This document shows positions 543 to 63,190 of a stretch of 63,205 bases of DNA, in pieces; the stretch's first letter is position 1; every line of letters begins with the position of its first letter. Source of the DNA: Pseudomonadota bacterium (GTDB taxonomy: Bacteria; Pseudomonadota; Gammaproteobacteria; Burkholderiales; Rhodocyclaceae). The notes under the pieces were generated by a model, which saw only the letters and a list, made by a program, of their open reading frames with translations, was not told the origin of the DNA and ran no database searches. The DNA lies in the NCBI GenBank assembly GCA_018241665.1, contig JAFEDK010000028.1, forward strand, positions 1 through 63,205, read 5' to 3'. Both the position numbers and the translations under genes were made by a program.

Positions 543-609
543 GTGGGGGCGAATTCATCCGCCCTCCGTCGCCTAAACGAAGTCTGCGGGCGAATGAATT
601 CGCCCCCAC
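543..609 (+). repeat. Paired palindromic element 1 (67 bp)
   Basis: Two inverted arms (543-564 and 588-609) built around the core GGGCGAATTCATTCGCCC, separated by a 23-bp spacer. Each arm is itself a hairpin and the two arms also pair with each other, as in bacterial REP/BIME elements. The left arm has one change (ATCC for ATTC). It lies between the gcvT-like gene and purU. Confidence 0.9.
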
Positions 610-623
610 GGAGATACCCGGGC

Positions 624-1754
624 TCAGCCCTTGGCGGTGCGCTTGGTCTTGTCCGGGTCGTCGAAGGGCAGCGTGTGGGTCGTCGCGCTGCATTCGAGGC
701 TGGCGCTGCGCAGTTGCAGCTTGCGGCCTGCGACGGCGTAGGCCGGGTCGAGGCGGACGATGGCCATCGAGCGCTCCACCAGTCGTGAGTACATGCCACA
801 GGTGACGAAGCCCACCTTGGTGTCCCCGTCGTAGAGGGCATCGCCGGCCTGAGCGGCCTGGTTGCTGGCCAGCTCGACGCCGAATATCTTGAAGCGCTCC
901 TTGCCCTGCAGCCGGTAGTGCTCGGCGGCGCCGCGGAACTCCTTCTTGCCCGGCGATACGGTGAAGTCCAGGCCCAGTTCCCACAGGCTGTCGCCGATCG
1001 GCTCGCCCTCCATCGGGTACATGTCGGAGTTGTCGTAAGGGTAGAACAGCAGGTAGCTCTCCACGCGCAGCCAGTCCAGGGCGGTGAAGGAGCAGGGCAT
1101 GATGCCCATTTCCTTGCCTTCGGCGACGACGGTGTCCCAGATCTGCGGGGCATCGGCGGCCTTGCAGAAGATCTCGTAGCCACGCTCGCCGGTGTAGCCG
1201 GTGCGGGACAGCATCACCGGACGGCCGAAGAGGGTCGTCTGCATGTGGTGGAAGTAGGGCAGCTCGCGGATGCCAGGCACGTGCTTGGCGAGGAAATCGA
1301 CGGCCACCGGCCCTTGCAGGGACAGGTCGTGGAGGTCGTCGTCGAACAGCACCACCACGTTGCGGCCGACCGCTGCGCGGGTCAGGATTTCGTGGCCTGC
1401 GCCGGAGCCGTGCACCACCATGAAGGCGTTGGGGCCGTTGCGGTAGATCACGCAGTCGTCGATGAACTTGCCGGCCTCGTTGAGCATGCAGGCATACACC
1501 GACTTGCCCGGGTAGAGCTTGCTGACGTTGCGGGTGGTGGCGAAGTTGATCAGCGCCTCGGCGTGGGGGCCGATGATGTGCATCTTCTTGAGGCCGGACA
1601 CATCCATCAGGCCGGCACGGGTGCGGATCGCCTCGTGTTCGTCGGCCAGATCGGTCCGGTAGGTCCAGGCGGTACCCATGCCGTTCCAGTCTTCGAGGCT
1701 GGAACCGAGGGCGCGGTGGCGGTCAGCGAGGACCGAGAGTCTCCATGAACTCAT
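624..1754 (-). CDS. GcvT-like folate-dependent aminomethyltransferase
   Basis: 376-residue member of the GcvT/DmdA fold, whose members transfer a methyl or aminomethyl carbon to tetrahydrofolate. The body shows the typical layout: an N-terminal folate-binding domain with AGLMDVSGLKKMHIIGP near residue 50, the LQGP and SRTGYTGERGYEIF motifs in the middle, and a C-terminal beta-barrel. ATG at 1754 was chosen because AGGAG lies six bases upstream; an in-frame TTG two codons earlier is less likely. It is the first gene of a pair with purU. It lacks the other glycine-cleavage genes nearby, so it is probably not the T-protein of glycine cleavage but a demethylase or carbon acceptor for another methylated substrate. 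The true substrate cannot be read from sequence. Confidence 0.8.
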   Translation of the reverse strand: MSSWRLSVLADRHRALGSSLEDWNGMGTAWTYRTDLADEHEAIRTRAGLMDVSGLKKMHIIGPHAEALINFATTRNVSKLYPGKSVYACMLNEAGKFIDDCVIYRNGPNAFMVVHGSGAGHEILTRAAVGRNVVVLFDDDLHDLSLQGPVAVDFLAKHVPGIRELPYFHHMQTTLFGRPVMLSRTGYTGERGYEIFCKAADAPQIWDTVVAEGKEMGIMPCSFTALDWLRVESYLLFYPYDNSDMYPMEGEPIGDSLWELGLDFTVSPGKKEFRGAAEHYRLQGKERFKIFGVELASNQAAQAGDALYDGDTKVGFVTCGMYSRLVERSMAIVRLDPAYAVAGRKLQLRSASLECSATTHTLPFDDPDKTKRTAKG

Positions 1755-1822
1755 CTGCAACTCCTAGTCGAAAAGGGGATGAAGCTTGAGTTCATTAGGC
1801 CAGCCGGGCCGGCGCGGGAAAA

Positions 1823-1840
1823 TACTACTCTGGTACTACT
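1823..1840 (+). promoter_or_regulatory. Two NarL-type heptamers upstream of the gcvT-like gene
   Basis: TACTACT occurs at 1823-1829 and again at 1834-1840, 11 bp apart in direct orientation. Each fits the NarL heptamer TACYNMT. The site is about 70-85 bp upstream of the gcvT-like start, and a NarL-family regulator is encoded next door. Short motif, so chance is possible. Confidence 0.3.
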
Positions 1841-1883
1841 TCAGGGCTGAGGGAGACGGAGTTCGCCTGGTGGAGGGCAATCT

Positions 1884-1908
1884 GTGGGGGCGAATTCATT
1901 CGCCCCAC
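1884..1908 (+). repeat. Single palindromic arm (element 2)
   Basis: One arm of the palindromic family, closed by CCCCAC instead of continuing into a spacer and second arm, so it forms one 25-nt hairpin. It ends two bases after the stop of the NarL-type gene (minus strand) and could act as its transcript end. Confidence 0.75.
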
Positions 1909-1910
1909 GG

Positions 1911-2585
1911 TCAGGCTGATCGTTCTTCCTCCCGCAACTCCCGCAGCCACACGGCAGCCTCGAAGCGGTTGCGCAGGTTGAGCTTCTGCAGCACGTGCTT
2001 CACATGGACCTTCACCGTGCTTTCGGCGATGCCCAGTGAGCGGGCAACGATCTTGTTCGACGCGCCCTTGGAAACCAGCTCCAGGGTTTCCTGCTCCCTT
2101 GCGGTGAGGGAGGCCCAGCCGGCGTCGATGCTCTCCCGGCTCGGCGGCTGGGGCTTGGCGAGGATGCCGCCGACTTCGGCGGACAGCACGGTGCCGCCGG
2201 CCGCCACCTGGCGCAGTTTCAGGCAGAACTCGTCGGGCTCCATGTCCTTCAGCAGATAGCCGCTGGCGCCGGCCTTCAGTGCCTCCATCACGTCGAAGCT
2301 GGAGTCGGACACGGTGAGCATCACCAGTCGCGTCGCCGAGCCGGCGGTTTTCAGCGCGCGGACCACCGAGATGCCGTCGAGGCCCTTCATATGCAGGTCC
2401 ACCAGGGCCACGTCGGGTTGATGGGTTAGCACGGCCTCGATGCCCTCGGCGCCGGAAGCGGCCTCGGCGACCACCTGGAGGTCGCCGTACATCGAGAGCA
2501 GCTGGCCGATGCCCTTGCGGAAGAGGGCGTGGTCGTCCACCACCACCAGGCGGATCGGCGGCGTGTCGTCAATGGGGCTGTACAT
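1911..2585 (-). CDS. NarL/FixJ-family response regulator
   Basis: 224 residues: an N-terminal receiver domain (VVVDDHALF near residue 15, phospho-acceptor Asp in VALVDLHMKGLDG near 62, conserved Lys in YLLKDMEPDEF) followed by a LuxR/GerE-type helix-turn-helix (LTAREQETLELVSKGASNKI, near residues 155-215). Binds DNA as a phosphorylated dimer. It is encoded directly after the NarX-like kinase, overlapping its end by 17 bp, so the two are cotranscribed and cognate. The receiver and output resemble NarL/NarP, but whether nitrate is the signal is doubtful because the partner kinase lacks the NarX periplasmic sensor. Confidence 0.88.
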   Translation of the reverse strand: MYSPIDDTPPIRLVVVDDHALFRKGIGQLLSMYGDLQVVAEAASGAEGIEAVLTHQPDVALVDLHMKGLDGISVVRALKTAGSATRLVMLTVSDSSFDVMEALKAGASGYLLKDMEPDEFCLKLRQVAAGGTVLSAEVGGILAKPQPPSRESIDAGWASLTAREQETLELVSKGASNKIVARSLGIAESTVKVHVKHVLQKLNLRNRFEAAVWLRELREEERSA

Positions 2586-4140
2586 GGGCGGTGTCCCTGT
2601 CGTTGTCGTATGGGGGAGTCGAAGGTGGTGGGCCGGCCCGCGGGCGGAAGCGCAACTCCACGCGGGTGCCGCGGGCGCCCGGACCGGGTTGCAGGCTCAG
2701 GTTGCCGGCCAGTTGCCTGGCGCGGTCGTGCATGATCGAGACGCCGTGATGGCCTTCGCCGCCGCTGCCGGCTGCCATCCCGCGGCCGTCGTCGTCCACC
2801 TGCACGACCACTACGCCGGCTTCGCAATCCAGGCGGATCAGCGCATGCCCGGCGCGGGCGTGGCGGATTACGTTGGTCAGCGCCTCGCGGACGATCTGCA
2901 GCAGATGGAATTCCTCGTTGACCGACAGCGGTGTGTCGCCGAGCCGGTAGTCGAGGCTGATCTCGGTGCCGGCGCGGGCCGACAACTCCTCCACCACCTC
3001 GCGAATGGCCTGCTGCAGGCCGCCGGGCGGCATGCTGGTACGGAAGGCCGACAGCAGTTCGCGCAGGTGGCGGTAGGCGCTGTCGAGGCCGGTCTTGATA
3101 TCGCCGGAGATCTCCAGCACCTTGCCGCCGGGGGCGCAGGCGCCGCAGCTACGCCCGATCTCCAGTTGCAGGCGGGCGATCTGCAGCTTCATGTAGGACA
3201 GGGCCTGGGCCAGGGAGTCGTGCAGTTCGCCGGCGATCGCGTTGCGCTCGTCCATCAGGGCCAGCCGGCGGCGGCGCTGGGTGCGCTGCAGGCTGCCAAG
3301 GGATAGCGCGAACAGGCTGGCCACCGCATCCACCAGCCGGCTGTAGCGGCTTTCGAAGAGCATGTCGCTGCGGGCTTCCACCACCAGGATGCCGTAGATG
3401 CCGTCGGCGTCGCGCACCGGCACCGCCAGCTCGACCCGCTCGCCATCCGGGTGGGTGGCCTGGCGGCGCAGCCCGCCCTTGCGGGCCAGGGTCTCCGTGT
3501 CGAACTCGTCGAGCAGGCTGGCCAGCCGTGGCGCGCCCAGGCGGGTCGGCACGCCCAGGCTCTCGGCGAGGGGCGTCAGCAGGCCCAGCGAGCAGCTGCG
3601 GGCGCGCAGGCAGTCGGCCATGTCCTCCAGCAGGGCGGTCAACCACTGGGCGCTGGCGTTGTTCTCGGCCAGGCAGGTACAGGCGCGGTAGACGAACTCC
3701 AGCGAGCGGGTGGCGAAGCGTTCCTGCTCGTGGGCGTGACGGGACAGCCGTTCGCTGTCGGCGATGCGGCAGGCCAGCTGGGCTGACACGCCGTCCAGTG
3801 CGCGTATCAACCGGTCGATCTCGTCGGTCCCGCCGACTGGCCCGTCCGCACCGCCGGTGTGCGCGGCCAGGCGGGCCAGCGCACAGTCGGTGCGTTGCGC
3901 CAGGGCCCGGTAGGCGATGCGCAGCGTGATCGCACAGCCGATCACGAAGGCCAGCGCCAGCGCGATCTCCATCAGTTCGATGCCTGCCAGCCGGCTGGCC
4001 GCCAGGCTGGCAGGGGCCGCGTGGGCCGCCTCTTCCAGGCGCCCGGCGGCCCCGGCGCAGAGGAACAAGGCCGCGCACAGGCTGGCCAGGCAGCTCAGCA
4101 TGAGGCTCAGGCGGGACAGGAGCGGGTAGCGTTTCAGCAC
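2569..4140 (-). CDS. NarX-like sensor histidine kinase with a minimal periplasmic loop
   Basis: HisKA_3-type kinase that autophosphorylates on His (GELHDSLAQALSYMKLQIARL, His near residue 307) and passes phosphate to the adjacent NarL-like regulator. Two membrane helices (about residues 12-32 and 54-76) are separated by only about 20 residues, so the periplasmic nitrate-binding P-box of NarX is absent. A HAMP-like linker and a GAF-like region (about 140-290) follow, then the dimerisation/phosphorylation helix and an ATPase domain with DDDGRG and GHHGVSIMHDR motifs. The C-terminal tail overlaps the regulator gene. The start is uncertain: I used GTG at 4140; the frame stays open to an ATG at 4257, and no candidate has a convincing ribosome binding site. 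Confidence 0.8.
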   Translation of the reverse strand: MLKRYPLLSRLSLMLSCLASLCAALFLCAGAAGRLEEAAHAAPASLAASRLAGIELMEIALALAFVIGCAITLRIAYRALAQRTDCALARLAAHTGGADGPVGGTDEIDRLIRALDGVSAQLACRIADSERLSRHAHEQERFATRSLEFVYRACTCLAENNASAQWLTALLEDMADCLRARSCSLGLLTPLAESLGVPTRLGAPRLASLLDEFDTETLARKGGLRRQATHPDGERVELAVPVRDADGIYGILVVEARSDMLFESRYSRLVDAVASLFALSLGSLQRTQRRRRLALMDERNAIAGELHDSLAQALSYMKLQIARLQLEIGRSCGACAPGGKVLEISGDIKTGLDSAYRHLRELLSAFRTSMPPGGLQQAIREVVEELSARAGTEISLDYRLGDTPLSVNEEFHLLQIVREALTNVIRHARAGHALIRLDCEAGVVVVQVDDDGRGMAAGSGGEGHHGVSIMHDRARQLAGNLSLQPGPGARGTRVELRFRPRAGPPPSTPPYDNDRDTAHVQPH

Positions 4141-4326
4141 GTAAGCGTCGTGGTCGATGGAGACGGTCAATCGATATGCTGTTCTTATGAAGCAACTTTT
4201 GCGCCGTGTGGGAAACGCTCTATTTCCGCATCCGATCGGCGCTGCGCCATGCCGCATGGAGTGAATCCTGCTTGATGCGGGCGCCGCGCCGTGTCGCTGC
4301 GGCGTTCACGCTCACGGATTCCCACC

Positions 4327-6132: not shown

Positions 6133-6191
6133 AGGCGCTGTTTACGCATCCTTTATATGTGGCCCGCTTGAAAAGGGCCATAAAACAAGGC

Positions 6192-6224
6192 TTTGTCGTT
6201 TGTTGTCTTTATACGTGCGACAAA
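6192..6224 (+). promoter_or_regulatory. Inverted repeat upstream of the rnf promoter
   Basis: TTTGTCG at 6192-6198 and CGACAAA at 6218-6224 form a perfect 7-bp inverted repeat, about 115-145 bp upstream of the sigma-54 core element. Position suits an enhancer-binding protein, but it does not match the NifA consensus TGT-N10-ACA. The bound protein is unknown. Confidence 0.35.
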
Positions 6225-6337
6225 CCGGGCCATGTAGCGTCTCCTCCACAAAACGTTCCATCCCATCCGCCCGCCGGACCCCCGTAAAGACTGTAAAACA
6301 CTGCAATTCCGGGCCTTCCGGCGCATCCGCGAGTCCT

Positions 6338-6353
6338 TGGCACAAGACCTGCT
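6338..6353 (+). promoter_or_regulatory. Sigma-54 (-24/-12) promoter of the rnf operon
   Basis: TGGCACAAGACCTGCT has the invariant GG (6339-6340) and GC (6351-6352) exactly ten bases apart and a perfect TGGCAC block, so it matches the RpoN core consensus TGGCAC-N5-TTGCW with one mismatch. Expected start of transcription is near 6364, about 23 bp before the rnfG start codon. Sigma-54 control is known for the nitrogen-fixation-linked rnf operons of Azotobacter and Rhodobacter relatives. Confidence 0.7.
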
Positions 6354-6386
6354 AAATCAGGGCAAACCCCCTTATTTCGACAGATC

Positions 6387-7025: not shown

Positions 7026-7026
7026 A

Positions 7027-12054: not shown

Positions 12055-13425
12055 ATGAGGATCCCGGCCGCCGCCCGTCCGTCCAGCCCGCAGCCCACCC
12101 GGCTGCGGGCTGTTTTCTTGGGGAGCGGGGTGGCGATGGTGTGGGCGGCCCTGCTGGTAGTGCTCATGCTGACCCCGCTGCGTAGTGGCCCGATGACCGA
12201 CACGCCTTACTTCCTGCCCGCCGTGCTGATGCTGGCGGTCGCGCTGACCGTCGGCCACACCACGGTCCGCCTGCGCCGCCATGCCGAGATCGCCGAGCGC
12301 AAGTCGCTGCTCAGCAAGACGCTCTACGGGTTCTCGCGGGAGCTGTCCGGCGCGCTCACCGCGGCCGACGTGGCCGACACCACCTTCGCCTTCCTCGCCA
12401 GCGCCGTCGGGGCGCGCAACGCCCGCCTGATTCCGCCGGCGGAGTTCATCGCACCGCCTTTTCCGGTGCTCGCCAGCCGCCTCGAGGCCTGCGTCGAGCA
12501 GGCGCGGCTGAACTGGGAGCCCTTGCCGGACGGCGCGCTGCACGCCCTGCTGCCCCTCGCCGCTGCCAGCGGCACCCAGGGCGTGCTGGCCTTCGAGGCG
12601 ATGCCGGCGGTGGTGTCCCACCCGGATTTCGTCGAATACATCGAGACCGTCGCGTCCCTCGTCGCGGTGGCGCTGGAGCGTTCGCGCTTCGCCGAGATGG
12701 CGCGGGAGACCGAGGTCCGGCACGCCTCCGAGGTGTTGCGCAGCTCCATCCTCGGCGCCCTGTCCCACGACCTGCGCACGCCGCTGGCGGCGCTGGTCAG
12801 CATGGCCGACACGGCGGCTCTCGGCAAAGCCTCGCCGGAGCGCCAGAAGCGCCTGCTCGAAGCAATCCGCAACCAGGCCATGACGATCTGCCAGCAGATG
12901 ATGAACCTTCTCGACATGGCCAAGCTGAGCTCCGGCAGTGTCGAGCTGAACCGTGCCTGGCAGCCGGTGGATGAAGTGGTCGGCGTGGTGCTGACGCAGA
13001 TCCGCGGCCAGTGGCGCGACCGGGAGATCAGCGTCGACCTGCCGCGCAACCTGCCGCCGGTGTGCATCGACGCGGTGCTGATCGAGCGCGTGCTGTGGAA
13101 CCTGCTGGAGAACGCCATCAAGTACGCGCCGGCCGACGCGCCGATTGAGCTGGCCGTGCGCCAGCTTGGCGACAGGCTGGAGATCAGCGTCAGCGATTCC
13201 GGCCCCGGCCTGCCGGACGGCGACGCCGGCCGCCTGTTCAACCTGTTCCAGCGTGGCCGGCAGGAGTCCGACGTGGCCGGCGTCGGCCTCGGGCTGGCGA
13301 TCTCGCGCAGCATCGTCGAGGCCCACGAGGGCGAGATCGGCGCGTCCAACCGCATCGGTGGCGGGGCGTGCTTCCACTTCACGCTGCCGATCGGCAACCC
13401 GCCGGACGTGCTGGCGCTGGGGTGA
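12055..13425 (+). CDS. KdpD-type sensor histidine kinase lacking the KdpD/Usp N-terminus
   Basis: 456 residues. Two hydrophobic segments (about 18-42 and 55-72), a GAF-like region (about 95-215), a HisKA helix with LSHDLRTPLAALVSMAD (His near 238) and an ATPase domain (N box NLLENAIKYAP, G boxes SDSGPGLPDG and GVGLGLAIS). This corresponds to the C-terminal half of KdpD; the ~350-residue universal-stress N-terminal module and two of four usual membrane helices are missing. It starts 30 bp after rnfD and is followed by a KdpE-type regulator, while no kdpFABC genes are in the window, so the K+ role may not hold. Could sense membrane or redox state in connection with Rnf (inference). Confidence 0.8.
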   Translation: MRIPAAARPSSPQPTRLRAVFLGSGVAMVWAALLVVLMLTPLRSGPMTDTPYFLPAVLMLAVALTVGHTTVRLRRHAEIAERKSLLSKTLYGFSRELSGALTAADVADTTFAFLASAVGARNARLIPPAEFIAPPFPVLASRLEACVEQARLNWEPLPDGALHALLPLAAASGTQGVLAFEAMPAVVSHPDFVEYIETVASLVAVALERSRFAEMARETEVRHASEVLRSSILGALSHDLRTPLAALVSMADTAALGKASPERQKRLLEAIRNQAMTICQQMMNLLDMAKLSSGSVELNRAWQPVDEVVGVVLTQIRGQWRDREISVDLPRNLPPVCIDAVLIERVLWNLLENAIKYAPADAPIELAVRQLGDRLEISVSDSGPGLPDGDAGRLFNLFQRGRQESDVAGVGLGLAISRSIVEAHEGEIGASNRIGGGACFHFTLPIGNPPDVLALG

Positions 13426-13430
13426 CGGCG

Positions 13431-14120
13431 ATGAGCGACGGCAAGACCATCCTGCTGGTGGAGGACGAGCGCCAGATGCGCGAGGCGGTGGCCACCGCGC
13501 TGGAATGCGAGGGCTTCGCCGTCTGCGAGGCGGGCAGCGCCAGCCAGGCGGCGGTGGAGGCGGCGGCGCGGCGGCCGGACGTGGTGATCCTCGATCTGGG
13601 CCTGCCGGACCGGGACGGCATCGACTTCATCCGCGACTACCGGGCCTGGTCGCCGACGCCGATCCTGGTGCTGTCGGCGCGCACCCAGGAGAAGAGCAAG
13701 GTCGACGCCCTCGACGCCGGTGCCGACGACTACCTCACCAAGCCTTTCGGCATCGCCGAGCTGCTGGCGCGCGTGCGCGTGCTGCTGCGCCGCGGCCAGG
13801 CCATGCCGGTCGTGCCGGAACCGAAGATCCGCTTCGGAGACCACGAGATCAACTGCGTGACGCGGGTCGTCGAGCGGGCCGGCGAGGCCCTGCACCTCAC
13901 CCAGATCGAATACCGCCTGCTGGTCTTCCTGGCCGCCAATCCGGGGCGGGTGATGACCCACCACCACCTGCTGACCCACATCTGGGGCGCCAAGGCCGCC
14001 GACAACCACCAGTACCTGCGGGTCTATGTCGGCCACCTCCGCCAGAAGATCGAAACCAGCCCGGCCTGCCCCCGCCATATCCTGACCGAGATCGGCGTCG
14101 GCTACCGTTTCGAGCCCTGA
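13431..14120 (+). CDS. KdpE-type OmpR-family response regulator
   Basis: 229 residues beginning MSDGKTILLVEDERQMREAV. Receiver domain with phospho-acceptor Asp in VVILDLGLPDRDG and conserved Lys in YLTKPFG, then a winged-helix DNA-binding domain (LTQIEYRLLVFLAANPGRVM, RQKIETSPACPRHILTEIGV). Start chosen five bases after the kinase stop. Resembles KdpE most, but see the note on its partner: kdp structural genes are not nearby. Confidence 0.83.
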   Translation: MSDGKTILLVEDERQMREAVATALECEGFAVCEAGSASQAAVEAAARRPDVVILDLGLPDRDGIDFIRDYRAWSPTPILVLSARTQEKSKVDALDAGADDYLTKPFGIAELLARVRVLLRRGQAMPVVPEPKIRFGDHEINCVTRVVERAGEALHLTQIEYRLLVFLAANPGRVMTHHHLLTHIWGAKAADNHQYLRVYVGHLRQKIETSPACPRHILTEIGVGYRFEP

Positions 14121-28098: not shown

Positions 28099-29481
28099 TT
28101 AGGCTTGCGCCTCGGCGAGGAGCTTGCTGGCGAAGGCGGCCTTCTCTTCCTTGCTCATCTTCTTGAGCTCGTTGTTGAGGACGCGCTGGTTCACCGACTG
28201 GTTCCAGTAGTCCAGCACCTCGAAGCCGAGCAGCGCGGCCTTGCCGACGAACTGGCGCAGCACTTCGTTGGTGGGGCCCATCACCCAGCCGGCCTTGCCG
28301 TCGCGCAGCAGGCGCTCGATGCCGAGGGCCGGCTTGTAGCCGGTGCCGCCGCAGGCGTGGAGCATCTTGTCCACCACGAAGGTGACGTTCTTGGAGGCGA
28401 AGAACTTGACCTGCCACAGCCAGTTGAGCAGCGCGGTGCGCGGCAGGTGGTCGATGGTGGCGTGGGCGGACCAGTCGCAGTTGTTGGTCTGCTCGTCCAG
28501 CGCCTTGGCGGCCAGGTACACGTAGCTGCGGCTGGCGTTGGTGTCGATCAGGCACTCGCCGACGTAGTCCTGGATGGTCGGGTAGTCGGCCACGCGCATG
28601 CCCACGTCGTTGTGCACCTTGCGGGTGGTGTGGTTCTTGGTGATGTCCATCGCGGCGAGGCAGATGCCGTTCCAGCAGGCCGAGGAGCACACCAGGAAGA
28701 AGGGGTCGACCACTTCGTCGTTGGACTTGGCGCCGTCGCCGATCGGGCCGACCAGCGCGTCCGGGGCGATCTCGACGCCGTCCACCGCGATGGGGCCGGA
28801 CTGGTTGCCGCGCATGCCGAGGCCGTCCCAGTTGGCCGGATCGGCGTGGATCTGGTCCTTGGTGACCAGGAAGCAGGACAGGTTGGAGTAGTCGCCGCCG
28901 AAGTCCGGCGAGGTGGTCTGGATGATGTACCAGTCGGCGAAGCCGCCGGAGGTGGTCCACGAGGCCTTCTTGAAGACCTTCCAGCCGTTGTCGGTGCGCT
29001 CGGCGCGGGACGACATCGGGTACCAGAAGTGGGAGCCGGTTTCCGGGTCGGAGTAGGACAGGGTGCCGATCAGCACGTCCTTGTCGACGCGGCGCAGGAT
29101 GTCCTTCAGGCGCTCGTTGTCGTGGTGGCGCAGCAGCGCGGCGGCGCAGGCGCCCAGGTGCATGGTGTAGCACATGGCGGTGGACGGGCAGCCGTAGCGG
29201 GCGATGGTCTCGACCACCATCGCGGCGCACAGGTGGCTCTCACCGCGGCCGCCGAGCTCCTTCGGGATGGTCAGGCTCATCAGGCCCATGGCGGCCAGGG
29301 CCTCGAAGTTCTTGCGCGGGTAGATGTACTTCTTGTCGCTCTCGATGGCGTTGGGGCGCAGCGTGGTTTCGCACAGGGCGATCAGGTCGGCCTGCAGGGC
29401 CTTCTGCTCGGCGGTGAGCAGCCACTGGGGGCTCCATTCGGAACCGATGCCGGTGGGGGTCATTTGGGTGATGGCGTTCAT
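28099..29481 (-). CDS. Acyl-CoA-dehydrogenase-fold protein, probable flavin-dependent monooxygenase
   Basis: 460 residues. N-terminal helical domain, middle beta domain with TTSGGFADWYIIQTT and GMRGNQSGPI, and C-terminal helical domain with ACGGTGYKP. The C-terminal segment that carries the catalytic base in dehydrogenases (consensus xYEGTxQI) here reads WVMGPTNEVLRQF, so a Met appears to occupy the Glu position. Paired with a flavin reductase, this points to a group D flavin monooxygenase (the fold of DszC and isobutylamine N-hydroxylase) rather than a fatty-acid dehydrogenase. In an amine-catabolic operon an amine or C-S/N oxygenase is plausible (inference). AGGA is seven bases before ATG 29481. 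Confidence 0.75.
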   Translation of the reverse strand: MNAITQMTPTGIGSEWSPQWLLTAEQKALQADLIALCETTLRPNAIESDKKYIYPRKNFEALAAMGLMSLTIPKELGGRGESHLCAAMVVETIARYGCPSTAMCYTMHLGACAAALLRHHDNERLKDILRRVDKDVLIGTLSYSDPETGSHFWYPMSSRAERTDNGWKVFKKASWTTSGGFADWYIIQTTSPDFGGDYSNLSCFLVTKDQIHADPANWDGLGMRGNQSGPIAVDGVEIAPDALVGPIGDGAKSNDEVVDPFFLVCSSACWNGICLAAMDITKNHTTRKVHNDVGMRVADYPTIQDYVGECLIDTNASRSYVYLAAKALDEQTNNCDWSAHATIDHLPRTALLNWLWQVKFFASKNVTFVVDKMLHACGGTGYKPALGIERLLRDGKAGWVMGPTNEVLRQFVGKAALLGFEVLDYWNQSVNQRVLNNELKKMSKEEKAAFASKLLAEAQA

Positions 29482-29582
29482 GGTGGTTTCCTTTGCTTGG
29501 GCGTTTTGAAAGGGGAATCGGTTGTGAGTACGGCTGGCGATGCTTGTTGGGGGCCGGGCTGCAGGGTTGTGGGGTGGGCGCT

Positions 29583-29649
29583 GTGGGGGCGAATTCATTC
29601 GCCCTCAGTCGGCGATCCAGAGTCCGCGGGCGAATGAATTCGCCCCCAC
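29583..29649 (+). repeat. Paired palindromic element 3 (67 bp)
   Basis: Arms 29583-29604 and 29628-29649, spacer 23 bp beginning TCAGTCGGCG. Same orientation as element 1. Lies inside the methylamine operon between the haem demethylase gene and the acyl-CoA-dehydrogenase-fold gene, a 200-bp gap. Confidence 0.92.
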
Positions 29650-29681
29650 GGGTTCCGTCCGCAGTCCCTACAGGTTCCTTT

Positions 29682-30758
29682 TCAGCGCGGCGCCAGCGTG
29701 CTGACGCCGGCTTCCGTGCCGACGGGCAATTCGCGGCCGTCGTCGTGCTGGGCCAGCCATTCGAGGGCGGCCGGCAGGTAGCGGGTGAGGCCCTTGTATT
29801 CGACGAGCTGGGGCGGCAGGGAGGACAGCACCCGGTGCAGGCGGGCGCCCCACTTGGGTACGCGGGCCAGGTCCTCGAGGGAGGCCAGGTAGCAGCGGAT
29901 CGGGAACAGGATTGCGTTGCTGCGCGGCAGGCGCCACAGGGTCTGCAGTTCGACGCGCAGGTGCACCTTCTGCCCGGCATTCTCGGGCGTGACGCTGGCC
30001 CGGTCCGGGCCCCACTCGGGGTAGCTCTCCGGCGAGGTGTCGAGGCGCGGGTTGATGCTCATGGTCCAGTTGAGGCGGCGCACCGGCTGGCCGAGGCGCA
30101 GCATCAGCAGGTATTTCAGGGCCCGCTCGAAGACGCCGGTCTGGTGGGCCAGCGGCACCGGGCCATGCCACTCCATGAAGCTCATGCCGACGTCGAACTC
30201 CAGTGACCAGTCGGCCTGGGAGGTGACCATGCCGGCGTCCATGAAGAGGTTGTCGTCGCGCTGGTCGCAGATCGCGAAGTCACCCTGGGCCTGGCGGGTG
30301 ATGTATTCGAAGGGTTCGCAGGGCAGGGTCTCGGCGTTGCCGAAGATGAAGCTCTGCTCGATGCCCAGCGGGCGGTTGATCCAGGTCCACCGGCTGCCGA
30401 AGTCGTCGCCTTCCTTGATCAGCGAGAACTGCTCCGGGTAGTCGGCGGACAGGTTCTCCATCAGCAGCTCCAGCGTGTCCCACTGGGCCATCATCATGTG
30501 CGGCAGCACCTGGCAGCGGCCGGGGTCGCGTTCCAGCGTGATGGCCTTGTCGCGGCATTCGGCGATGTAGTGCTCATCCACGTCGAAGGGGCGCAGGAAG
30601 ACGTCGCTCGGGCCGCTGCGCACATGCGGCTCGATGTTGACGCTGTACATGTAGCGGTCTTCCGGGAAGGGGAAGGGGAAGCGCAGGACGGCCGCGTCGC
30701 TGTTGCGGTAGCTGTAGTCGCCGCGGAAGGTTTCTTCGGGTTTGAATGCGATGCTCAT
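29682..30758 (-). CDS. Haem-dependent oxidative N-demethylase catalytic subunit (DUF3445)
   Basis: 358 residues, full length for the DUF3445/HODM alpha family, in which a haem-binding PAS domain has become a catalyst that oxidatively removes a methyl group from dimethylamine. Landmarks of the family visible here are the N-terminal FPFPFPEDRYMYSVNIEPH, ERDPGRCQVLPHMMMAQWDTLELL, ALKYLLMLRLGQPVRRLNW and the C-terminal AILFPIRCYLASLEDL. GGGAGAA precedes ATG 30758. Its electron-transfer and zinc-ribbon partner subunits lie immediately upstream and the folate-loading subunit downstream in the same direction. Substrate is predicted to be dimethylamine or a related secondary amine from homology, not shown by the sequence itself. 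Confidence 0.87.
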   Translation of the reverse strand: MSIAFKPEETFRGDYSYRNSDAAVLRFPFPFPEDRYMYSVNIEPHVRSGPSDVFLRPFDVDEHYIAECRDKAITLERDPGRCQVLPHMMMAQWDTLELLMENLSADYPEQFSLIKEGDDFGSRWTWINRPLGIEQSFIFGNAETLPCEPFEYITRQAQGDFAICDQRDDNLFMDAGMVTSQADWSLEFDVGMSFMEWHGPVPLAHQTGVFERALKYLLMLRLGQPVRRLNWTMSINPRLDTSPESYPEWGPDRASVTPENAGQKVHLRVELQTLWRLPRSNAILFPIRCYLASLEDLARVPKWGARLHRVLSSLPPQLVEYKGLTRYLPAALEWLAQHDDGRELPVGTEAGVSTLAPR

Positions 30759-30770
30759 GGCGGTTCTCCC

Positions 30771-30837
30771 GTGGAGGCGAATTCCTTCGCCCGTGGACTT
30801 CGTTTCACCGGTTGAGGGCGAATGAATTCGCCCCTAC
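30771..30837 (-). repeat. Paired palindromic element 4 (67 bp, reverse orientation)
   Basis: Arms 30771-30792 and 30816-30837. The spacer, read on the minus strand, begins TCAACCGGTG, matching the spacers of the plus-oriented elements, so this copy is inverted. The left arm carries two changes. It fills the 98-bp gap between two subunit genes of the N-demethylase. Confidence 0.9.
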
Positions 30838-30856
30838 GGAGGGTTCGTGGTGTGGC

Positions 30857-31807
30857 TTACAGGTCCAGCACCAGGCGCCCGCTCCGTGCCCGCGACACGC
30901 AGGGCAGGATCAGGCGGCCGGTCTCCCGCTCGGCGGCGGACAGGTAGTGGTCGCGGTGGTCGGCTTCTCCGTCCAGCAGCGGCGTCACGCACACGCCGCA
31001 GGCGCCGCCGCGGCACAGGCAGGGGGCTTTGACGCCGATCCGCTCGATGGCTTCGAGCAGGCTCTCGTCCTCGCCGACGCTGACCTCGACGCCGGACTTG
31101 GCGAGGAAGGCGCGGAAAGCCTCGCCGCCGGACAGGGCGCTGCCGAAGTGCTCGCAATGGACGTGGCTGGCGGGCCAGCCGGCGGCCGCGGCGAGTTCCA
31201 GCACCTCGTCGTTCATGGCGGCCGGGCCGCACACGTAGAGGTGGGTGCCGACCGGCTGGGCGGCGAGCAGGGCGGGGATGTCGAGGCGGCGGCCGTCGGC
31301 GTCCCAGTGCACGCTGACGCCGCTCTTGCCAGCCAGCCAGGGGTCGAAGACGTGCTGCTCGTCCTCGCGGCAGCACAGGTGCAGCGCGTAGTCGGCGCCG
31401 CCGAAGGCGAAGTCGGCCAGGTAGGACAGGAAGGGCGTGATGCCGATGCCGCCGGCGATCATCAGGTGGCGGCGGGCGGTGCGCACCGGGGCGAACAGGT
31501 TGCCGGGCCAGCCGGCCTCCAGCACGTCGCCGACCTTGATCTGCTCGTGGATGAAGGCCGAGCCGCCGCGGGAGCTGGGCACGCGCCGCACGATGATCTC
31601 GTAGGCGTCGCGGGCGCCGGGCCGGCTGATCAGCGAATAGGCGTTGCGGTGGGTGCGCGTGGCGCCCTTGAGCACGAGCTGGAGGTGGGCGCCGGCCGCC
31701 GCCGGGGGCAGCTTGCCGCCGTCCGCCGCCACCAGGCGCAGGTGGCGCAGGCTCGGCGAGATGGCGCTGGCGGCGGCCACCTTGAGCGTGAGGGTTTCGC
31801 CGATCAT
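30857..31807 (-). CDS. N-demethylase reductase subunit (flavin/2Fe-2S, VanB-PDR type)
   Basis: 316 residues. N-terminal ferredoxin-reductase domain that binds FMN and NAD(P)H (NAYSLISRPGARDAYEIIVRR cut at RPG; GGIGITPFLSYLA; HLCCREDEQHVF) and a C-terminal plant-type 2Fe-2S domain with CRGGACGVC near residue 268 and a final Cys in LILPCVSRA. It passes electrons from NAD(P)H to the haem subunit. The start codon overlaps the stop of the small upstream subunit (ATGA). Domain order reductase then 2Fe-2S is that of the phthalate dioxygenase reductase group. Confidence 0.9.
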   Translation of the reverse strand: MIGETLTLKVAAASAISPSLRHLRLVAADGGKLPPAAAGAHLQLVLKGATRTHRNAYSLISRPGARDAYEIIVRRVPSSRGGSAFIHEQIKVGDVLEAGWPGNLFAPVRTARRHLMIAGGIGITPFLSYLADFAFGGADYALHLCCREDEQHVFDPWLAGKSGVSVHWDADGRRLDIPALLAAQPVGTHLYVCGPAAMNDEVLELAAAAGWPASHVHCEHFGSALSGGEAFRAFLAKSGVEVSVGEDESLLEAIERIGVKAPCLCRGGACGVCVTPLLDGEADHRDHYLSAAERETGRLILPCVSRARSGRLVLDL

Positions 31808-35249: not shown

Positions 35250-35316
35250 GTGGGGGCGAATTCATTCGCCCTCAGTCGGTTGAATAATCACCGCGGGCGA
35301 ATGAATTCGCCCCCAC
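35250..35316 (+). repeat. Paired palindromic element 5 (67 bp)
   Basis: Arms 35250-35271 and 35295-35316, both matching the consensus core; spacer begins TCAGTCGGTT. Located between the porin terminator and the 3' end of the convergent hybrid kinase gene. Confidence 0.92.
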
Positions 35317-41257: not shown

Positions 41258-41324
41258 GTGGGGGCGAATTTATTCGCCCGCGGAGCTTGTTGAACCGACT
41301 GAGGGCGAATGAATTCGCCCTCAC
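41258..41324 (-). repeat. Paired palindromic element 6 (67 bp, reverse orientation)
   Basis: Arms 41258-41279 and 41303-41324. The spacer read on the minus strand begins TCAGTCGGTTC, so this copy is inverted relative to elements 1, 3, 5, 7 and 9. One substitution in the left core (TTTATTC for TTCATTC) and one in the outer end of the right arm. Confidence 0.9.
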
Positions 41325-44093: not shown

Positions 44094-44143
44094 TGGTGGG
44101 TAGCAAGCTGTGGTGGGTAGCAAGCTGTGGGGGGGAGCAAGCT
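44094..44143 (+). repeat. Three direct repeats of about 18 bp
   Basis: GTGGGTAGCAAGCTGTG appears twice back to back and a third, altered copy (GGGGAGCAAGCTGTG) runs into the left arm of palindromic element 7. Confidence 0.8.
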
Positions 44144-44223
44144 GTGGGGGCGAATTCATTCGCCCGCAGTCGGTGAGCCTGGCTCCCCGCTCCAAGTCCG
44201 CGGGCGAATGAATTCGCCCCCAC
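44144..44223 (+). repeat. Paired palindromic element 7 (80 bp, long spacer)
   Basis: Arms 44144-44165 and 44202-44223 match the consensus exactly; the spacer is 36 bp instead of 23. The terminal CAC of the right arm is also the first three bases of the octamer array that follows. Confidence 0.92.
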
Positions 44224-44318
44224 AGGCCCACAGGCCCACAGGCCCACAGGCCCACAGGCCCACAGGCCCACAGGCCCACAGGCCCACAGGCCCACAGGCC
44301 CACAGGCCCACAGGCCCA
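44221..44318 (+). repeat. Octamer tandem array (CACAGGCC, about 12 copies)
   Basis: 98 bp of perfect 8-bp period, CACAGGCC, beginning inside the last three bases of palindromic element 7. Ends 25 bp before the sbcC stop codon. Confidence 0.95.
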
Positions 44319-55741: not shown

Positions 55742-55751
55742 CGTCGTCCCC

Positions 55752-56984: not shown

Positions 56985-57090
56985 GGGATTCCCTCCGGCG
57001 AGATGTCATAGTGCTATAGCACATGCACATGTAACCGCAAGGAGGGTGGCGCCGGATGCCTTTCGTGCGCTCGCCCGCTGCTTTTGTCCT

Positions 57091-57420: not shown

Positions 57421-57487
57421 TTTCAGATCAACCAGCCTGTGGGGGGAAATCCTTTGGGGGAAATCCTGTGGGTGGAAAAGCCTGTCG

Positions 57488-57509
57488 GGGCGAATGAATT
57501 CGCCCCCAC
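57488..57509 (+). repeat. Single palindromic arm (element 8)
   Basis: Right-type arm of the palindromic family, exact core, without a partner arm on its left. Its terminal CAC starts the octamer array. Confidence 0.85.
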
Positions 57510-57536
57510 AGCCCCACAGCCCCACAGCCCCACAGC
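57507..57536 (+). repeat. Octamer tandem array (CACAGCCC, about 4 copies)
   Basis: Four CACAGCCC units beginning within the last three bases of palindromic arm 8, the last one ending in CACAGCCG. Confidence 0.85.
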
Positions 57537-57554
57537 CGCCGGACGGCCTGCGGT

Positions 57555-58319: not shown

Positions 58320-58441
58320 CGGTGGTGGCCTGGCCGTTGCGGTGAGCAAGCATAGCCGCCGCCGGCCCGTTGGCGGAAACCCCGGTTGTCGGCCGGCGGC
58401 GGGCGGGCAACAATCGGCCATTGCCTCATTCCGTGTGCCCC

Positions 58442-59077
58442 ATGCTCGCCATCGCCGCCCTCGCCATCAAGAAGACTGTGACCCTGTTTGCGCTGGTGGG
58501 GCCGGTGTCGATGATCCCGATCTTCCTGTCCGCCACCGATGGGCTCGATCTGCCGGCCCGGCTGCGCTTCGCGCGGACGATCGGGGTGAGCGTGACGGTG
58601 GCGCTGCTGGTGGCGGCCTTCCTGGGCCTGCCGCTGCTGAGCTTCCTCGGCGTATCGCTGGGGGCGATGCAGGTCGGTGGCGGCATCATCGTGCTGCTCC
58701 TGGCGATCGCGATGGTGCTCGGCAAGGAGACCAGCTTCAAGGGCTCGCCTGCCAACGGCGGCCAGCCGGAACGCCGCGAGGCGTCCATCGTGCCGCTGGC
58801 GGTGCCGCTGCTGGCCGGCCCGGCGGCCTTCAGCTACGTGATGGGCAACAGCGTGTGGGACAGCCGGCTGGACCTGATCCACGTGGTGCTGCCGATCGTG
58901 CTGGTCGGGCTGTCATGCTGGCTCAGCTTTCGCATCGCCTGCACCGCCGGGCGGGAGATCCGCCAGGCCACGCTGAACGTGGTGGAGCGGGTCAGCGGCT
59001 TCATCCTGTCGGCGATGGCCATCGAGATGATGGCGACCGGGCTGCGCCAGCTGTTTCCGCTGCTCGGGGGCGCCTAG
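58442..59077 (+). CDS. MarC-family inner-membrane protein
   Basis: 211 residues with six hydrophobic segments. FALVGPVSMIPIFLS in the first helix and IVPLAVPLLAGPAAFSYVM near 128-146 are the recognisable signatures of MarC/UPF0056. Function of the family is unknown; the original link to multiple antibiotic resistance was not upheld. Stops 17 bp before the end of the convergent PAS-GGDEF gene. Confidence 0.85.
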   Translation: MLAIAALAIKKTVTLFALVGPVSMIPIFLSATDGLDLPARLRFARTIGVSVTVALLVAAFLGLPLLSFLGVSLGAMQVGGGIIVLLLAIAMVLGKETSFKGSPANGGQPERREASIVPLAVPLLAGPAAFSYVMGNSVWDSRLDLIHVVLPIVLVGLSCWLSFRIACTAGREIRQATLNVVERVSGFILSAMAIEMMATGLRQLFPLLGGA

Positions 59078-59093
59078 CCGCGCGTCGCGGGCC

Positions 59094-60827: not shown

Positions 60828-60989
60828 GTCTGATAGGCCTCCCGACGGTCGCTTTTCAGTTGCCCGGCATTTTCGATGGTTTTGGCGTTTTCAAACCATT
60901 CTAGTCCATGGGCGCAGGGCGGGGGGTGCGTGACAAGGGAGGTGTCGGATGCTATCACTACGTCATCACCTGCCCTTTTGGGACGAGCC

Positions 60990-61442
60990 ATGCGCACCTT
61001 TCAGACATCCACCGAAATCATGGCCCCGGCGGAGCATGTCTGGCAGATCCAGACCGATGTGGCGCGCTGGCCGGAATGGACCGCGTCGGTGTCCAGCGTG
61101 GAGCCGCTGACGCCCTTGCCGCTGGCCGTCGGGTCGAGCGTGCGCCTCTCCCAGCCAGGCTTTCCGGCGGCGGTATGGACCGTCACCGCGCTGGAGCCGG
61201 GGGTGCATTTCGTCTGGGAGTCCCACAGCCCGGGCATGAAGGCGGTCGCCCAGCACATGCTGACGCCCACCGCGGCGGGCTGCGTGGTCGATCTGAGCGT
61301 GGTCTACGAGGGCCTGCTGGGAGGCGTGGTCGGCTTCCTGATGCGCCATGTGACCCAGCGCTTCCTCGAAATGGAGGCCCGCGGGCTCAAGTGGCAGGCG
61401 GAGAGCCTGCCCGAGGAGGCGCTGGTCTTCAACGCTAGCTGA
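60990..61442 (+). CDS. SRPBCC-family protein
   Basis: 150 residues of the START/Bet v1-like fold: TEIMAPAEHVWQIQTDVARW then PEWTASV is the classical N-terminal strand-helix motif, and the C-terminal helix LMRHVTQRFLEMEARGLK closes the hydrophobic cavity. Likely binds a lipid or other hydrophobic ligand. GGGA lies just upstream of ATG 60990. Divergent from the PAS-GGDEF gene with 160 bp between. Confidence 0.82.
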   Translation: MRTFQTSTEIMAPAEHVWQIQTDVARWPEWTASVSSVEPLTPLPLAVGSSVRLSQPGFPAAVWTVTALEPGVHFVWESHSPGMKAVAQHMLTPTAAGCVVDLSVVYEGLLGGVVGFLMRHVTQRFLEMEARGLKWQAESLPEEALVFNAS

Positions 61443-61580
61443 AGCTGGCGGCCGGCGCCATTGCCCAATTTTTAGGCAGCGGCCGAAAAACCCGCTGCTT
61501 CAGGGGTTTGCGGCCAACCCCCACATCTTATCCACAGGCTTGGCCACGGCGGACGGGGATAATCCACCGTCCGCGGCCGT

Positions 61581-61976
61581 TCAGCCGGCGGCAACCGCCT
61601 TGATGGTCTCGCGCTTCCATTCACAGCTGCGGCTCACCGATACCCGGCGGGCCTTGGGCACCGCCAGCGGCTTGGCGATGGTGATCTCGGCCCGGCGCAC
61701 CGGAAAGCGCGCGCCGACAGCGTCGAGCATGGCCTGGCTGAGGTTTTCCAGCAGGTTGAAGTGGCGGCTGGCGAGGAGTTCTTCCAGGCAGTCCACGACC
61801 TGGTCGTAGTCCACCGTGTGGCGGATGTCGTCGCTGCGCGCGGCCAGGGTGCCGTCGATGGCCAGCAGGAGGTCGATCTCCAGCGGCTGGCGGGCGGCGA
61901 GTTCGTGGGCATAGATGCCGATGGAGGCGTCGAGGGCGAGGCCTTCGAGGCGGATCAGGCAATCATCGGTGGACAT
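61581..61976 (-). CDS. folB: Dihydroneopterin aldolase
   Basis: 131 residues. Cleaves 7,8-dihydroneopterin to 6-hydroxymethyl-dihydropterin in folate synthesis. IRLEGLALDASIGIYAHELA near residue 8, TVDYDQVVDCLEELLASRHF then NLLENLSQAM, and ITIAKPLAVPKARRVSV are typical, including the Tyr and Glu of the active site. It follows folD by 69 bp on the same strand. ATG 61976 was chosen as it begins directly before the first strand. Confidence 0.9.
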   Translation of the reverse strand: MSTDDCLIRLEGLALDASIGIYAHELAARQPLEIDLLLAIDGTLAARSDDIRHTVDYDQVVDCLEELLASRHFNLLENLSQAMLDAVGARFPVRRAEITIAKPLAVPKARRVSVSRSCEWKRETIKAVAAG

Positions 61977-62045
61977 GGGCGGGCTCCGGCGGCGGTGAGT
62001 GGGCGACGCGCCGGACATCCATCCGGCGCGTCGAGGGCGGCATTG

Positions 62046-62951
62046 TCAGCCATTCTTGAGGGTTGGTGCTTCCCATTCCTGAAAATCGTCGGCCTGGCGC
62101 ATGCGCAGGGCGCGTTCGGCGGAGCGCAGGGTGTTCTCGATGAGCATGGTGACGGTCATCGGGCCGACGCCGCCGGGCACCGGGGTGATCCAGCTGGCCT
62201 TCTCCTTGACCCCGTCGAAATCGACGTCGCCGACGATCTTTCCGTCGGGCAGGCGGTTGATGCCCACGTCGATGACGATGGCGCCCTCTTTGACCATCTG
62301 CGGCACGATCAGGCCCGGCTTGCCGGCGGCGACGATCAGGATGTCGGCGAGGATGGTGTGCTGGGCGAGGTCGCGGGTCCTGGCATGGCAAATCGTCACG
62401 GTGGCCTCGCGCTGCAGCAGCATCAGGGCCATCGGCTTGCCGACGATGTTGCTGGCGCCGACGACGACCACGTTCTTGCCGGCCACGTCGGTGCCGGTGG
62501 TGTCGAGCAGGAGCTGTACGCCGTAGGGCGTGCAGGGCGGGAAGATGGTGTTGCCGACGACGAGTCCGCCGACGTTGTAGAGGTGGAAGCCGTCCACATC
62601 CTTATGCACCGAGATGGCTTCGAGCACGGCGCGCGGCTCGATGTGCGGGGGCAGCGGCAGCTGGATCAGGATGCCATGCACGGCCGGGTCGGCGTTGAGG
62701 CGGGCGATGGTGGCGAGCACCTCGGCCTGGGGCGTATCGACGGGCAGGGCGATGTGGAAGGAGCGCACGCCGCACTCCTCGCAGGCCTTGACCTTGTTGC
62801 CGACATAAACGCGGGAAGCGGGGTTGTCGCCGACGAGGATGACGGCCAGGCCGGGCTGCACGCCCTGGTCGGCGAGGTGATCGACACGCTCGCGGAAGCC
62901 TTCGCGCAGCCGCTTCGAGAGGGCCTTGCCGTCGATGATCTGGGCGGTCAC
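62046..62951 (-). CDS. folD: Methylenetetrahydrofolate dehydrogenase/cyclohydrolase
   Basis: 301 residues, usual length. Converts 5,10-methylene-THF through methenyl-THF to 10-formyl-THF using NADP+. Landmarks: VGDNPASRVYVGNKVKACEE (Tyr and Lys of the active site), GILIQLPLPPHIE, KDVDGFHLYNVG, the NADP-binding GASNIVGKPMALMLL and the C-terminal TPVPGGVGPMTVTMLIENT. I read the start as GTG 62951 (VTAQIIDGKALSK) because AGGAG lies nine bases upstream and no ATG is suitably placed. Upstream are octamer repeats and a paired palindromic element. Confidence 0.95.
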   Translation of the reverse strand: MTAQIIDGKALSKRLREGFRERVDHLADQGVQPGLAVILVGDNPASRVYVGNKVKACEECGVRSFHIALPVDTPQAEVLATIARLNADPAVHGILIQLPLPPHIEPRAVLEAISVHKDVDGFHLYNVGGLVVGNTIFPPCTPYGVQLLLDTTGTDVAGKNVVVVGASNIVGKPMALMLLQREATVTICHARTRDLAQHTILADILIVAAGKPGLIVPQMVKEGAIVIDVGINRLPDGKIVGDVDFDGVKEKASWITPVPGGVGPMTVTMLIENTLRSAERALRMRQADDFQEWEAPTLKNG

Positions 62952-63050
62952 GGATTCAGTCTCCTGGAAAAAAGCGGGGCGATCCGTGGTCGGATCGCCC
63001 CGGCGAAACGCCTTGCGGGGCGAGAGGGAGAAACTTGCATACTGGCCACC

Positions 63051-63106
63051 CTGTGGCCCTGTGGCCCTGTGGCCCTGTGGCCCTGTGGCCCTGTGGCCCT
63101 GTGGCC
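63051..63106 (+). repeat. Octamer tandem array (CTGTGGCC, 7 copies)
   Basis: Seven perfect CTGTGGCC units (on the minus strand CACAGGGC-type) followed by a partial one, 17 bp left of palindromic element 9. Lies in the folD upstream region, about 100 bp before the start codon. Confidence 0.93.
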
Positions 63107-63123
63107 CTGTGGGCCTTGAACCT

Positions 63124-63190
63124 GTGGGGGCGAATTCATTCGCCCTCAGCCGGTGGAGCGACCACCGCGGGCGAATGAATTCGCCCCCAC
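63124..63190 (+). repeat. Paired palindromic element 9 (67 bp)
   Basis: Arms 63124-63145 and 63169-63190, both exact; spacer begins TCAGCCGGTG. At the right edge of the window, upstream of folD. Confidence 0.92.

Follow-up and report, generated by a model that had tools for sequence, protein, structure and literature searches.

A REPIN-RAYT system of the group 3 type in a Rhodocyclaceae genome, with short tandem arrays at the feet of its elements

Among the REP-associated tyrosine transposases (RAYTs, or TnpA-REP), group 3 largely coincides with subclass 2.5, and the repetitive extragenic palindromic (REP) sequences of group 3 are described in the relevant sections of Corneloup 2021 (PMC8266576) as short and generally perfect palindromes. 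In Pseudomonas fluorescens SBW25, the passages of Bertels and Rainey 2011 (PMC3116915) that concern the REPINs describe inverted pairs of fixed length with conserved arms and a less conserved spacer. RAYTs at the same chromosomal place have been termed orthogroups and a change of their REP class an orthoswitch (Nunvar 2013, PMC3686654); where the sources treat the matter, the mechanisms by which RAYTs move REPINs and by which a REP class changes are open (PMC8266576, PMC3686654). Here we analyze a stretch of 63,205 nt (the window, with positions counted from its first letter) of contig JAFEDK010000028.1 from a Rhodocyclaceae bacterium (GCA_018241665.1), which carries nine copies of a nested palindrome, the paired ones with the SBW25 layout. 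We are highly confident that these elements are REPINs, i.e., non-autonomous replicating partners of one RAYT encoded on another contig. The system is of the group 3/subclass 2.5 type and adds a new host to a kind already known. The evidence comes from the architecture and copy number of the elements, the single RAYT that they flank, the agreement between REP classes and RAYT clades, a gene-context bias, species-specific presence, and near-identical spacers at distant loci.

The first-pass annotation of the window had reported seven paired elements and two single arms, all intergenic, and all nine were recovered at the same positions, between genes called by codon usage. They are listed below, where G numbers denote genomes (G016, G020, and G021 being close relatives) and, further on, L numbers denote stretches of sequence.

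543 to 609, plus strand: REPIN of 67 bp, spacer orientation plus, one stem mismatch in the left arm
1884 to 1908, plus strand: single REP arm with GTGG foot, found as a core match
29583 to 29649, plus strand: REPIN of 67 bp, spacer orientation plus; armless orthologous gap in G016, G020, and G021
30771 to 30837, minus strand: REPIN of 67 bp, spacer orientation minus, two mismatches in the left arm; armless orthologous gap in G016, G020, and G021
35250 to 35316, plus strand: REPIN of 67 bp, spacer orientation plus; pair absent in G016, G020, and G021, with one degenerate arm in G016
41258 to 41324, minus strand: REPIN of 67 bp, spacer orientation minus, loop variant TT in the left arm
44144 to 44223, plus strand: REPIN of 80 bp with a 36-nt spacer, orientation plus, assigned by eye
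57488 to 57509, minus strand: single REP arm, found as a core match
63124 to 63190, plus strand: REPIN of 67 bp, spacer orientation plus

Six pairs are thus exactly 67 bp long, as first read, and the seventh is 80 bp. The proposed orientation of five plus and two minus was obtained again, for six of the seven spacers by spacer comparison and for the seventh by eye. At up to three mismatches on both strands, the core matches the window 31 times (expected 0.13; largest 2 in 100 shuffles), corresponding to 16 distinct arms since near-palindromic arms are counted twice.

Each REP arm comprises a GTGG or GTAG foot and a perfect 8-bp stem, GGGCGAAT, with the loop TC, and a REPIN comprises two inverted arms and a spacer of usually 23 nt. 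The genome that carries the window (G000, hereafter the focal genome; 5.43 Mb in 55 contigs) contains 757 arms at up to one mismatch, compared to none for a reversed-pattern control, and 224 perfect pairs, so copies are not confined to the window. A sample of 1.405 Mb was read, consisting of the window and 68 further stretches, 12 of which were picked because they contain arms. It holds 276 arms at up to three mismatches, of which 208 are exact and have the perfect 8-bp stem; the foot is GTGG in 202 and GTAG in 48. Inverted pairs account for 222 of these arms, and the offset is 41 bp in 91 of the 111 pairs. Exact arms likewise made up 142 of 188 in a 701-kb sample of the focal genome. The claim that the spacers are related held up (mean column identity of 0.63 for 44 spacers from a 301-kb sample vs. 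0.38 for random sequence, largest 0.405 of 200). Among 91 elements with 23-nt spacers, the per-base difference is 2.6% in the arms and 47% in the spacers, taken in the better orientation. When folded as single-stranded DNA, three of the 67-mers each gave one long hairpin (−23 to −36 kcal/mol, z −7.6 to −10.3), and a lone arm gave a 7-bp hairpin that leaves GTGG unpaired; the REP/BIME (bacterial interspersed mosaic element) architecture envisaged at first is borne out. Base pairing inside the spacer was considered and rejected, with pair 6-18 as the only one of 11 position pairs that exceeded shuffles (z 3.0).

A rare second REP class, GGTCGAAT-TC-ATTCGACC, contributes three pairs and a single hybrid to the focal sample and was likewise seen in G004 (L106, L114); no RAYT was found adjoining it. 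The sequence GGTCGAATTCATTCGACC, which occurs four times in 701 kb of the focal genome, was considered as a compensatory arm variant and rejected: it constitutes a separate REP class in G004 and is therefore not a new mutation.

The window contains no RAYT, as had been noted, and the Y1-type gene flanked by the same arms that the first-pass annotation proposed to look for was found elsewhere in the genome, as its only match to PF01797 (Y1_Tnp):

L032:9853 to 10302, minus strand: RAYT gene, 148 residues translated, one short of the stop

The protein scores 150 bits against the model of REP-associated tyrosine transposases, NF047646 (cut-off 80), and its sole match in the PDB at E ≤ 0.001 is the TnpArep entry 4er8 (E 1e-5). 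Its motifs DHLH, WQ, and YIVANP fit the set DH[LF]H, WQ, and YI[VI]ANP given for subclass 2.5 in the section of PMC6006769 on that subclass. The nearest paired elements lie approximately 45 and 115 bp from the gene, one on either side, and the surrounding 11.8 kb contain 30 exact arms. Whole REPINs with their flanks also form tandem arrays near the gene, at L032:5428-6116 (period 115 bp, six copies) and 13279-13689 (period 113 bp, 3.6 copies); a REP tandem array in the E. coli stretch L232 has a 113-bp step as well. The neighbor of the RAYT is a gene that we take to encode a metallo-beta-lactamase fold, and the next gene in G016 and G019 is, judged by eye, presumably secF.

The arm was found in 16 of 60 genomes, including the focal one, all of them within the genus, with 220 arms in G016, 28 in G008, 21 in G020, 19 in G019, and at most 10 in the others; the arm is missing from several complete genomes of the genus, and the within-genus range is thus 0 to 757. 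The 22-mer occurs in a 398-genome sample of the phylum, which included no other genome of the genus, only in the focal genome, 600 times. Twelve stretches of IMG/VR contigs with 49-68% G+C also hold the 22-mer arm, some as pairs with other spacer lengths, and in L130, L131, L132, and L137, which differ in G+C, the identical 22-base arm forms REPIN pairs. Such occurrence of the same REP in unrelated hosts may reflect either transfer or convergence.

Across the genus, RAYTs and REP classes go together. RAYT matches were obtained in 9 of 23 genomes, and five encode full-length close RAYTs: the focal genome, which has one copy, and, at 54-64% identity, G013, which has three, G019, G018, and G003. 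The RAYT of G022 is split, that of G008 is partial, and G006 and G015 have distant matches only (30-37%). Each full-length close RAYT is flanked by its own class, namely GGGCGACT at the RAYT of G019 and at two of the three in G013, and GTCGGACT at those of G018 and G003 and at the third of G013. Genome counts of GGGCGACT are 176 in G019 and 121 in G013, but also 199 in G022 and 131 in G015, and those of GTCGGACT are 405 in G018, 190 in G003, and 23 in G013. In a tree of 13 RAYTs, the two REP classes represented more than once each correspond to a clade (support 0.97 and 1.00). The RAYTs of the focal genome, G019, and G003 follow the same neighbor gene despite their different classes, and that of G022 lies on the other side of this gene; G016, G020, and G021 have the neighbor gene and no RAYT match, the assembly of G016 being fragmented. 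Outside these genomes, the gammaproteobacterial metagenome-assembled genome SJ420 carries a 58% identical RAYT beside another class (L061:3868-3910, GTGG plus GTCAGACT-TC-AGTCTGAC).

Some elements combine arms of two classes. Nine such hybrid pairs were found in relatives (three in G019, two in G008, and one each in G022, G010, G005, and G013), eight of them with both arms exact, and the focal genome has one hybrid with one mismatch in each arm. Many of the stretches concerned were picked for a listed lone GGGCGAAT arm, so the count is not a rate. G019 has 19 arms of the GGGCGAAT type, 17 of them exact, and no one-step intermediate to GGGCGACT is among them. Because hybrid arms are mostly exact and G019 shows no intermediates, these data hint at a change of REP class by replacement of whole arms rather than by slow drift. 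The spacers of different classes are possibly homologous, as judged from alignment: the G016 consensus (from 27 of 36 perfect pairs) matches the 42-nt consensus of the GGGCGACT class, built from 29 hand-picked spacers, at 19 of 23 positions with one 18-base gap (0 of 1000 shuffles), whereas the focal consensus matches it at only 14 of 23 (38 of 1000 shuffles).

The surroundings of the elements have a feature of their own. At a period of up to 60 and a score of at least 50, the 1.405 Mb contain 155 tandem arrays, of which 57 are mostly intergenic; 39 adjoin the outer foot of an element, and all 39 of these are intergenic. Placement anywhere yields a mean of 0.9 such arrays (largest 5 of 200), a null that is too easy, and the stricter placement within gene gaps yields 1.7 (largest 7 of 500). 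The arrays of the window are as follows.

44094 to 44147, plus strand: tandem array, 17-bp unit repeated 3.2 times, ending at the left foot of the REPIN at 44144
44219 to 44318, minus strand: tandem array, CCCACAGG repeated 12.5 times, beginning in the right foot of the REPIN at 44144
57436 to 57490, no strand assigned: tandem array, 14-bp period repeated 3.7 times, abutting the single arm at 57488 on its tail side
57504 to 57537, minus strand: tandem array, CCCCACAG repeated 4.2 times, beginning in the foot of the single arm at 57488
63049 to 63127, plus strand: tandem array, CCCTGTGG repeated 10 times, ending at the left foot of the REPIN at 63124

Array units measure 8 to 23 bp (13 to 16 bp in 29 of the 39) and mostly end in TGTGGG; GTGGG or GTAGG, read toward the foot, is present in 35 arrays, and the remaining unit sequence is locus-specific. 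In five elements both sides bear an array, and the two units differ within each element, which argues against insertion into ready-made arrays. Read toward the foot, TGTGGG was counted 173 times at distances of up to 150 bp, spread over 78 of 258 flanks, compared to seven times at 450-600 bp; on the opposite strand there are 31 near and 12 far matches. The dinucleotide directly outside the foot is most commonly CT (106 of 258 feet). At one element shared with G016 (L218:10495, L228:14044), the focal genome exceeds G016 by a single 15-bp unit on the left and a single 14-bp unit on the right, and therefore the duplication, or a loss in G016, occurred in place. We found no description of short foot-anchored arrays in the open literature, including the sections of PMC3116915 on clusters and tandem arrays. 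This foot-anchored duplication process was unexpected.

We give an even chance to the arrays having arisen by replication slippage at forks stalled before the hairpin, without involvement of the RAYT. Such slippage would suit arrays on both outer sides of pairs, units that in some cases extend into the stem, and the tail-side arrays found at 3 of the 51 single arms; a native GTGGG, seen by eye about 14 bases outside the right foot of the shared element, could have served as microhomology. It sits less well with the motif counts: the motif lies within 60 bp of 71 of 248 feet in the focal genome but, in two small samples, of 1 of 25 in G016 (Fisher p = 0.007), which has the same arms and no RAYT that was found, and of 0 of 21 in 100 kb of E. 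coli K-12, ten of these 21 feet being in one tandem array. Motif-bearing flanks in relatives number 8 of 33 in G019, 5 of 24 in G013, 13 of 40 in G003 (but with 16 matches in the far control), and 4 of 36 in G004, G011, G022, and G010 pooled. In G018, only 2 of 38 flanks bear it although the genome has a RAYT; the presence of a RAYT is therefore not by itself predictive of arrays, and this case favors neither side. Nor do arrays at the 51 single arms, five at the head and three at the tail, separate the mechanisms. A more tentative proposal, which we consider doubtful, is that tandem duplication proceeds outward, time and again, from the REP feet of this genome: the RAYT would nick CT/GTGG and the freed end would re-prime approximately 8 to 23 bases upstream, leaving locus-specific TGTGGG-ended units outside the elements; the same nicking with strand transfer would swap single arms, producing hybrid REPINs and offering a physical route for the orthoswitch. 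The arrays may be footprints of activity at REP feet, and they would help account for the ragged empty sites described below.

Comparison with relatives was clean at three window sites, 29583, 30771, and 35250; it was unclean at 41258 and 44144 and gave no result at 543, 1884, 57488, and 63124. At the three clean sites, the orthologous gaps of G016, G020, and G021 have flanks 93.7-98.6% identical to those of the focal genome and lack any arm in nine of nine cases; padding by 25 bases brings in one degenerate arm, at 35250 in G016. Other REP classes occupy the gaps at 29583 and 30771 in G004, G011, and G013, and at 29583 only in G018, and no REP class was seen in these gaps in G012 and G006. 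We also compared 125 focal clusters with eight G016 stretches, four of which had been fetched because pairs were listed there. Both flanks of nine clusters were present in G016, where two share the element, two have one degenerate arm, and five have none. In the reverse test, 14 G016 clusters gave four matches: the two shared elements, the 35250 site, and a locus-end artefact that was dropped. The two elements common to both genomes differ at one and two of 23 spacer bases, and the spacer therefore need not be hypermutable. Furthermore, 21 of 91 spacers have a neighbor within three differences outside their own stretch (about 0.2 in a column-shuffled null), three of the 21 lying within approximately 10 kb of each other on adjoining stretches, and one spacer is identical on two contigs with unrelated flanks. 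Because near-identical spacers recur at distant loci, REPIN units seem to be copied together with the spacer, in lineages that seem old. Lineage-specific presence and whole-unit copying are thereby supported.

The check for empty sites that the first-pass annotation proposed found the paired element absent from all three close relatives at the three clean sites, and the earlier suggestion of a unit mobilized as a whole is supported insofar as distant loci share spacers. Since the presence/absence differences are not exact 67-bp insertions, the mode of movement can only be inferred. It is unlikely that the elements are relics of an ancient, vertically transmitted set that is prone to deletion, such that absence in relatives reflects loss rather than gain. 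The wide divergence of the spacers, which implies old lineages, and the ragged gaps in relatives would fit such relics; the absence of the pair from all three close relatives at each testable window site, the spacers shared between distant loci, and the many exact arms in the 701-kb sample (142 of 188) do not.

Three observations weigh against REPINs that depend on a RAYT for their spread. Four presence/absence sites were aligned, and none is an exact 67-bp insertion, the gaps being ragged. Genomes without a detected RAYT can carry many arms (220 in G016, 131 in G015, and 73 in G011), for which we assume RAYT loss or incomplete assembly. Finally, the fraction of arms in perfect pairs is not strictly tied to RAYT presence. 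It is 448 of 757, 118 of 176, and 68 of 121 where the RAYT is intact (G000, G019, and G013), 142 of 199 where it is split (G022), and, without a full-length close RAYT, 72 of 220 in G016, 66 of 131 in G015, 44 of 73 in G011, 22 of 57 in G004, 16 of 45 in G009, 10 of 31 in G010, and 6 of 22 in G005. We considered decay of REPINs after RAYT loss and rejected it, as G011 and G022 depart from an otherwise fitting trend, and the fractions may be reduced where assemblies are fragmented.

Gene context was assessed in 1.167 Mb, i.e., the 1.405 Mb minus the 12 arm-selected stretches, with genes from codon-usage calls. There, 84 of 86 clusters are intergenic. Of 79 clusters in gaps that measure 60 bp or more and have a called gene on either side, 26 lie in convergent gaps (8.9 expected by length), 3 in divergent gaps (23.7 expected), and 50 in tandem gaps (46.4 expected). 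The elements prefer the 3' ends of genes and shun divergent promoters. The strength of this bias and the stability of the hairpins would suit sequences that the host keeps as terminators, mRNA 3'-end stabilizers, or protein-binding sites and multiplies by recombination, with the RAYT as a bystander. However, the placement also fits selection against harmful insertions, the only RAYT of the genome is flanked by these arms just as RAYTs elsewhere are flanked by other classes, copies are missing from several complete genomes of the genus, and few sites are common to a close relative; we consider such a host function very improbable as the origin of the family. That the elements are the ends of an autonomous IS200/IS605 insertion sequence can be dismissed, since the Y1 HUH nature of the RAYT is set against one gene copy for hundreds of arms and a score of 19.8 bits to the insertion sequence model (below its cut-off of 55) vs. 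150 to the RAYT model.

In the window itself, two elements lie at 28099-31807 in gaps of a same-strand gene run with matches to acyl-CoA dehydrogenase, haem-dependent oxidative N-demethylase, and a DmmA-like flavin/iron-sulfur protein. Between 28000 and 45500, 10 terminator-like sites were counted vs. 8.1 in shuffles, and a promoter scan found none, which is uninformative. Neither a tRNA nor an Rfam family reaching its gathering score was found in the window.

Taking the elements as REPINs served by the RAYT, we infer the following cycle of binding, cutting, transfer, and replication, with selection on placement. A REPIN that becomes single-stranded, e.g., during replication, would fold at its arm, and the RAYT, as an HUH/Y1 enzyme, would bind foot and hairpin and cut beside the foot, where CT is commonest. 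The enzyme would then assist in copying the unit, frequently to a place close by and in some cases to an intergenic site far away. Spacers would drift while arms stay constant, as we propose that only recognizable arms replicate, and selection would leave copies behind genes and remove them from divergent promoter regions.

The genus offers a well-populated system, with 757 arms, one RAYT, and near relatives with and without a detected RAYT. It also offers RAYTs in the same neighborhood with different classes, hybrid elements, and foot arrays, and the last two are parts that a specialist may not expect. The core strings had no match in the open papers searched; GGGCGAAT is absent from the main text of PMC3733652, taken without its family figure, and from the 22 and 13 REP classes listed in the portion consulted of PMC3686654. 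Within this scope, the REP class GGGCGAAT was not found in print.

Compared to described systems, the closest parallels are spread over several hosts. The E. coli BIMEs and their TnpAREP (group 2), in the relevant parts of PMC8266576, are alike in the GTAG foot, the REP with inverted REP, and one domesticated Y1 enzyme; their stems need a bulge and their enzyme has a C-terminal extension, whereas 208 of 276 arms here have a perfect 8-bp stem, without the bulge of the enterobacterial group 2. Thauera, in the passages of Nunvar 2010 (PMC2817692) and PMC3733652 that treat it, has a Pseudomonas-like RAYT (56% identity reported) and many REPs, more than a third of them near the gene, likewise clustered here; its Pseudomonas-like REP has a 5-bp stem, unlike the 8-bp stem of our arms. 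The SBW25 REPINs also form clusters beside the RAYT and tandem arrays of whole REPINs with flanks, as here, but their REP sequence differs, and the cluster and tandem-array sections of PMC3116915 describe no short foot-anchored arrays. For the REP classes of Pseudomonas and Stenotrophomonas, the relevant sections of Nunvar 2013 (PMC3686654) mention no hybrid elements such as those found here; they report RAYTs at one chromosomal place with different flanking classes, copy number dependent on the cognate RAYT, and RAYT loss, all of which have parallels here, and the Stenotrophomonas REPs have eight to nine perfect pairs beside a GTRG foot, like our arms. The group 3/subclass 2.5 TnpAREP, as covered in the pertinent parts of PMC8266576 and PMC6006769, have been reported mostly from relatives of Pseudomonas and Xanthomonas; the system described here, in another genus, shares their motifs, their short and perfectly palindromic REPs, and their single REP-flanked gene.

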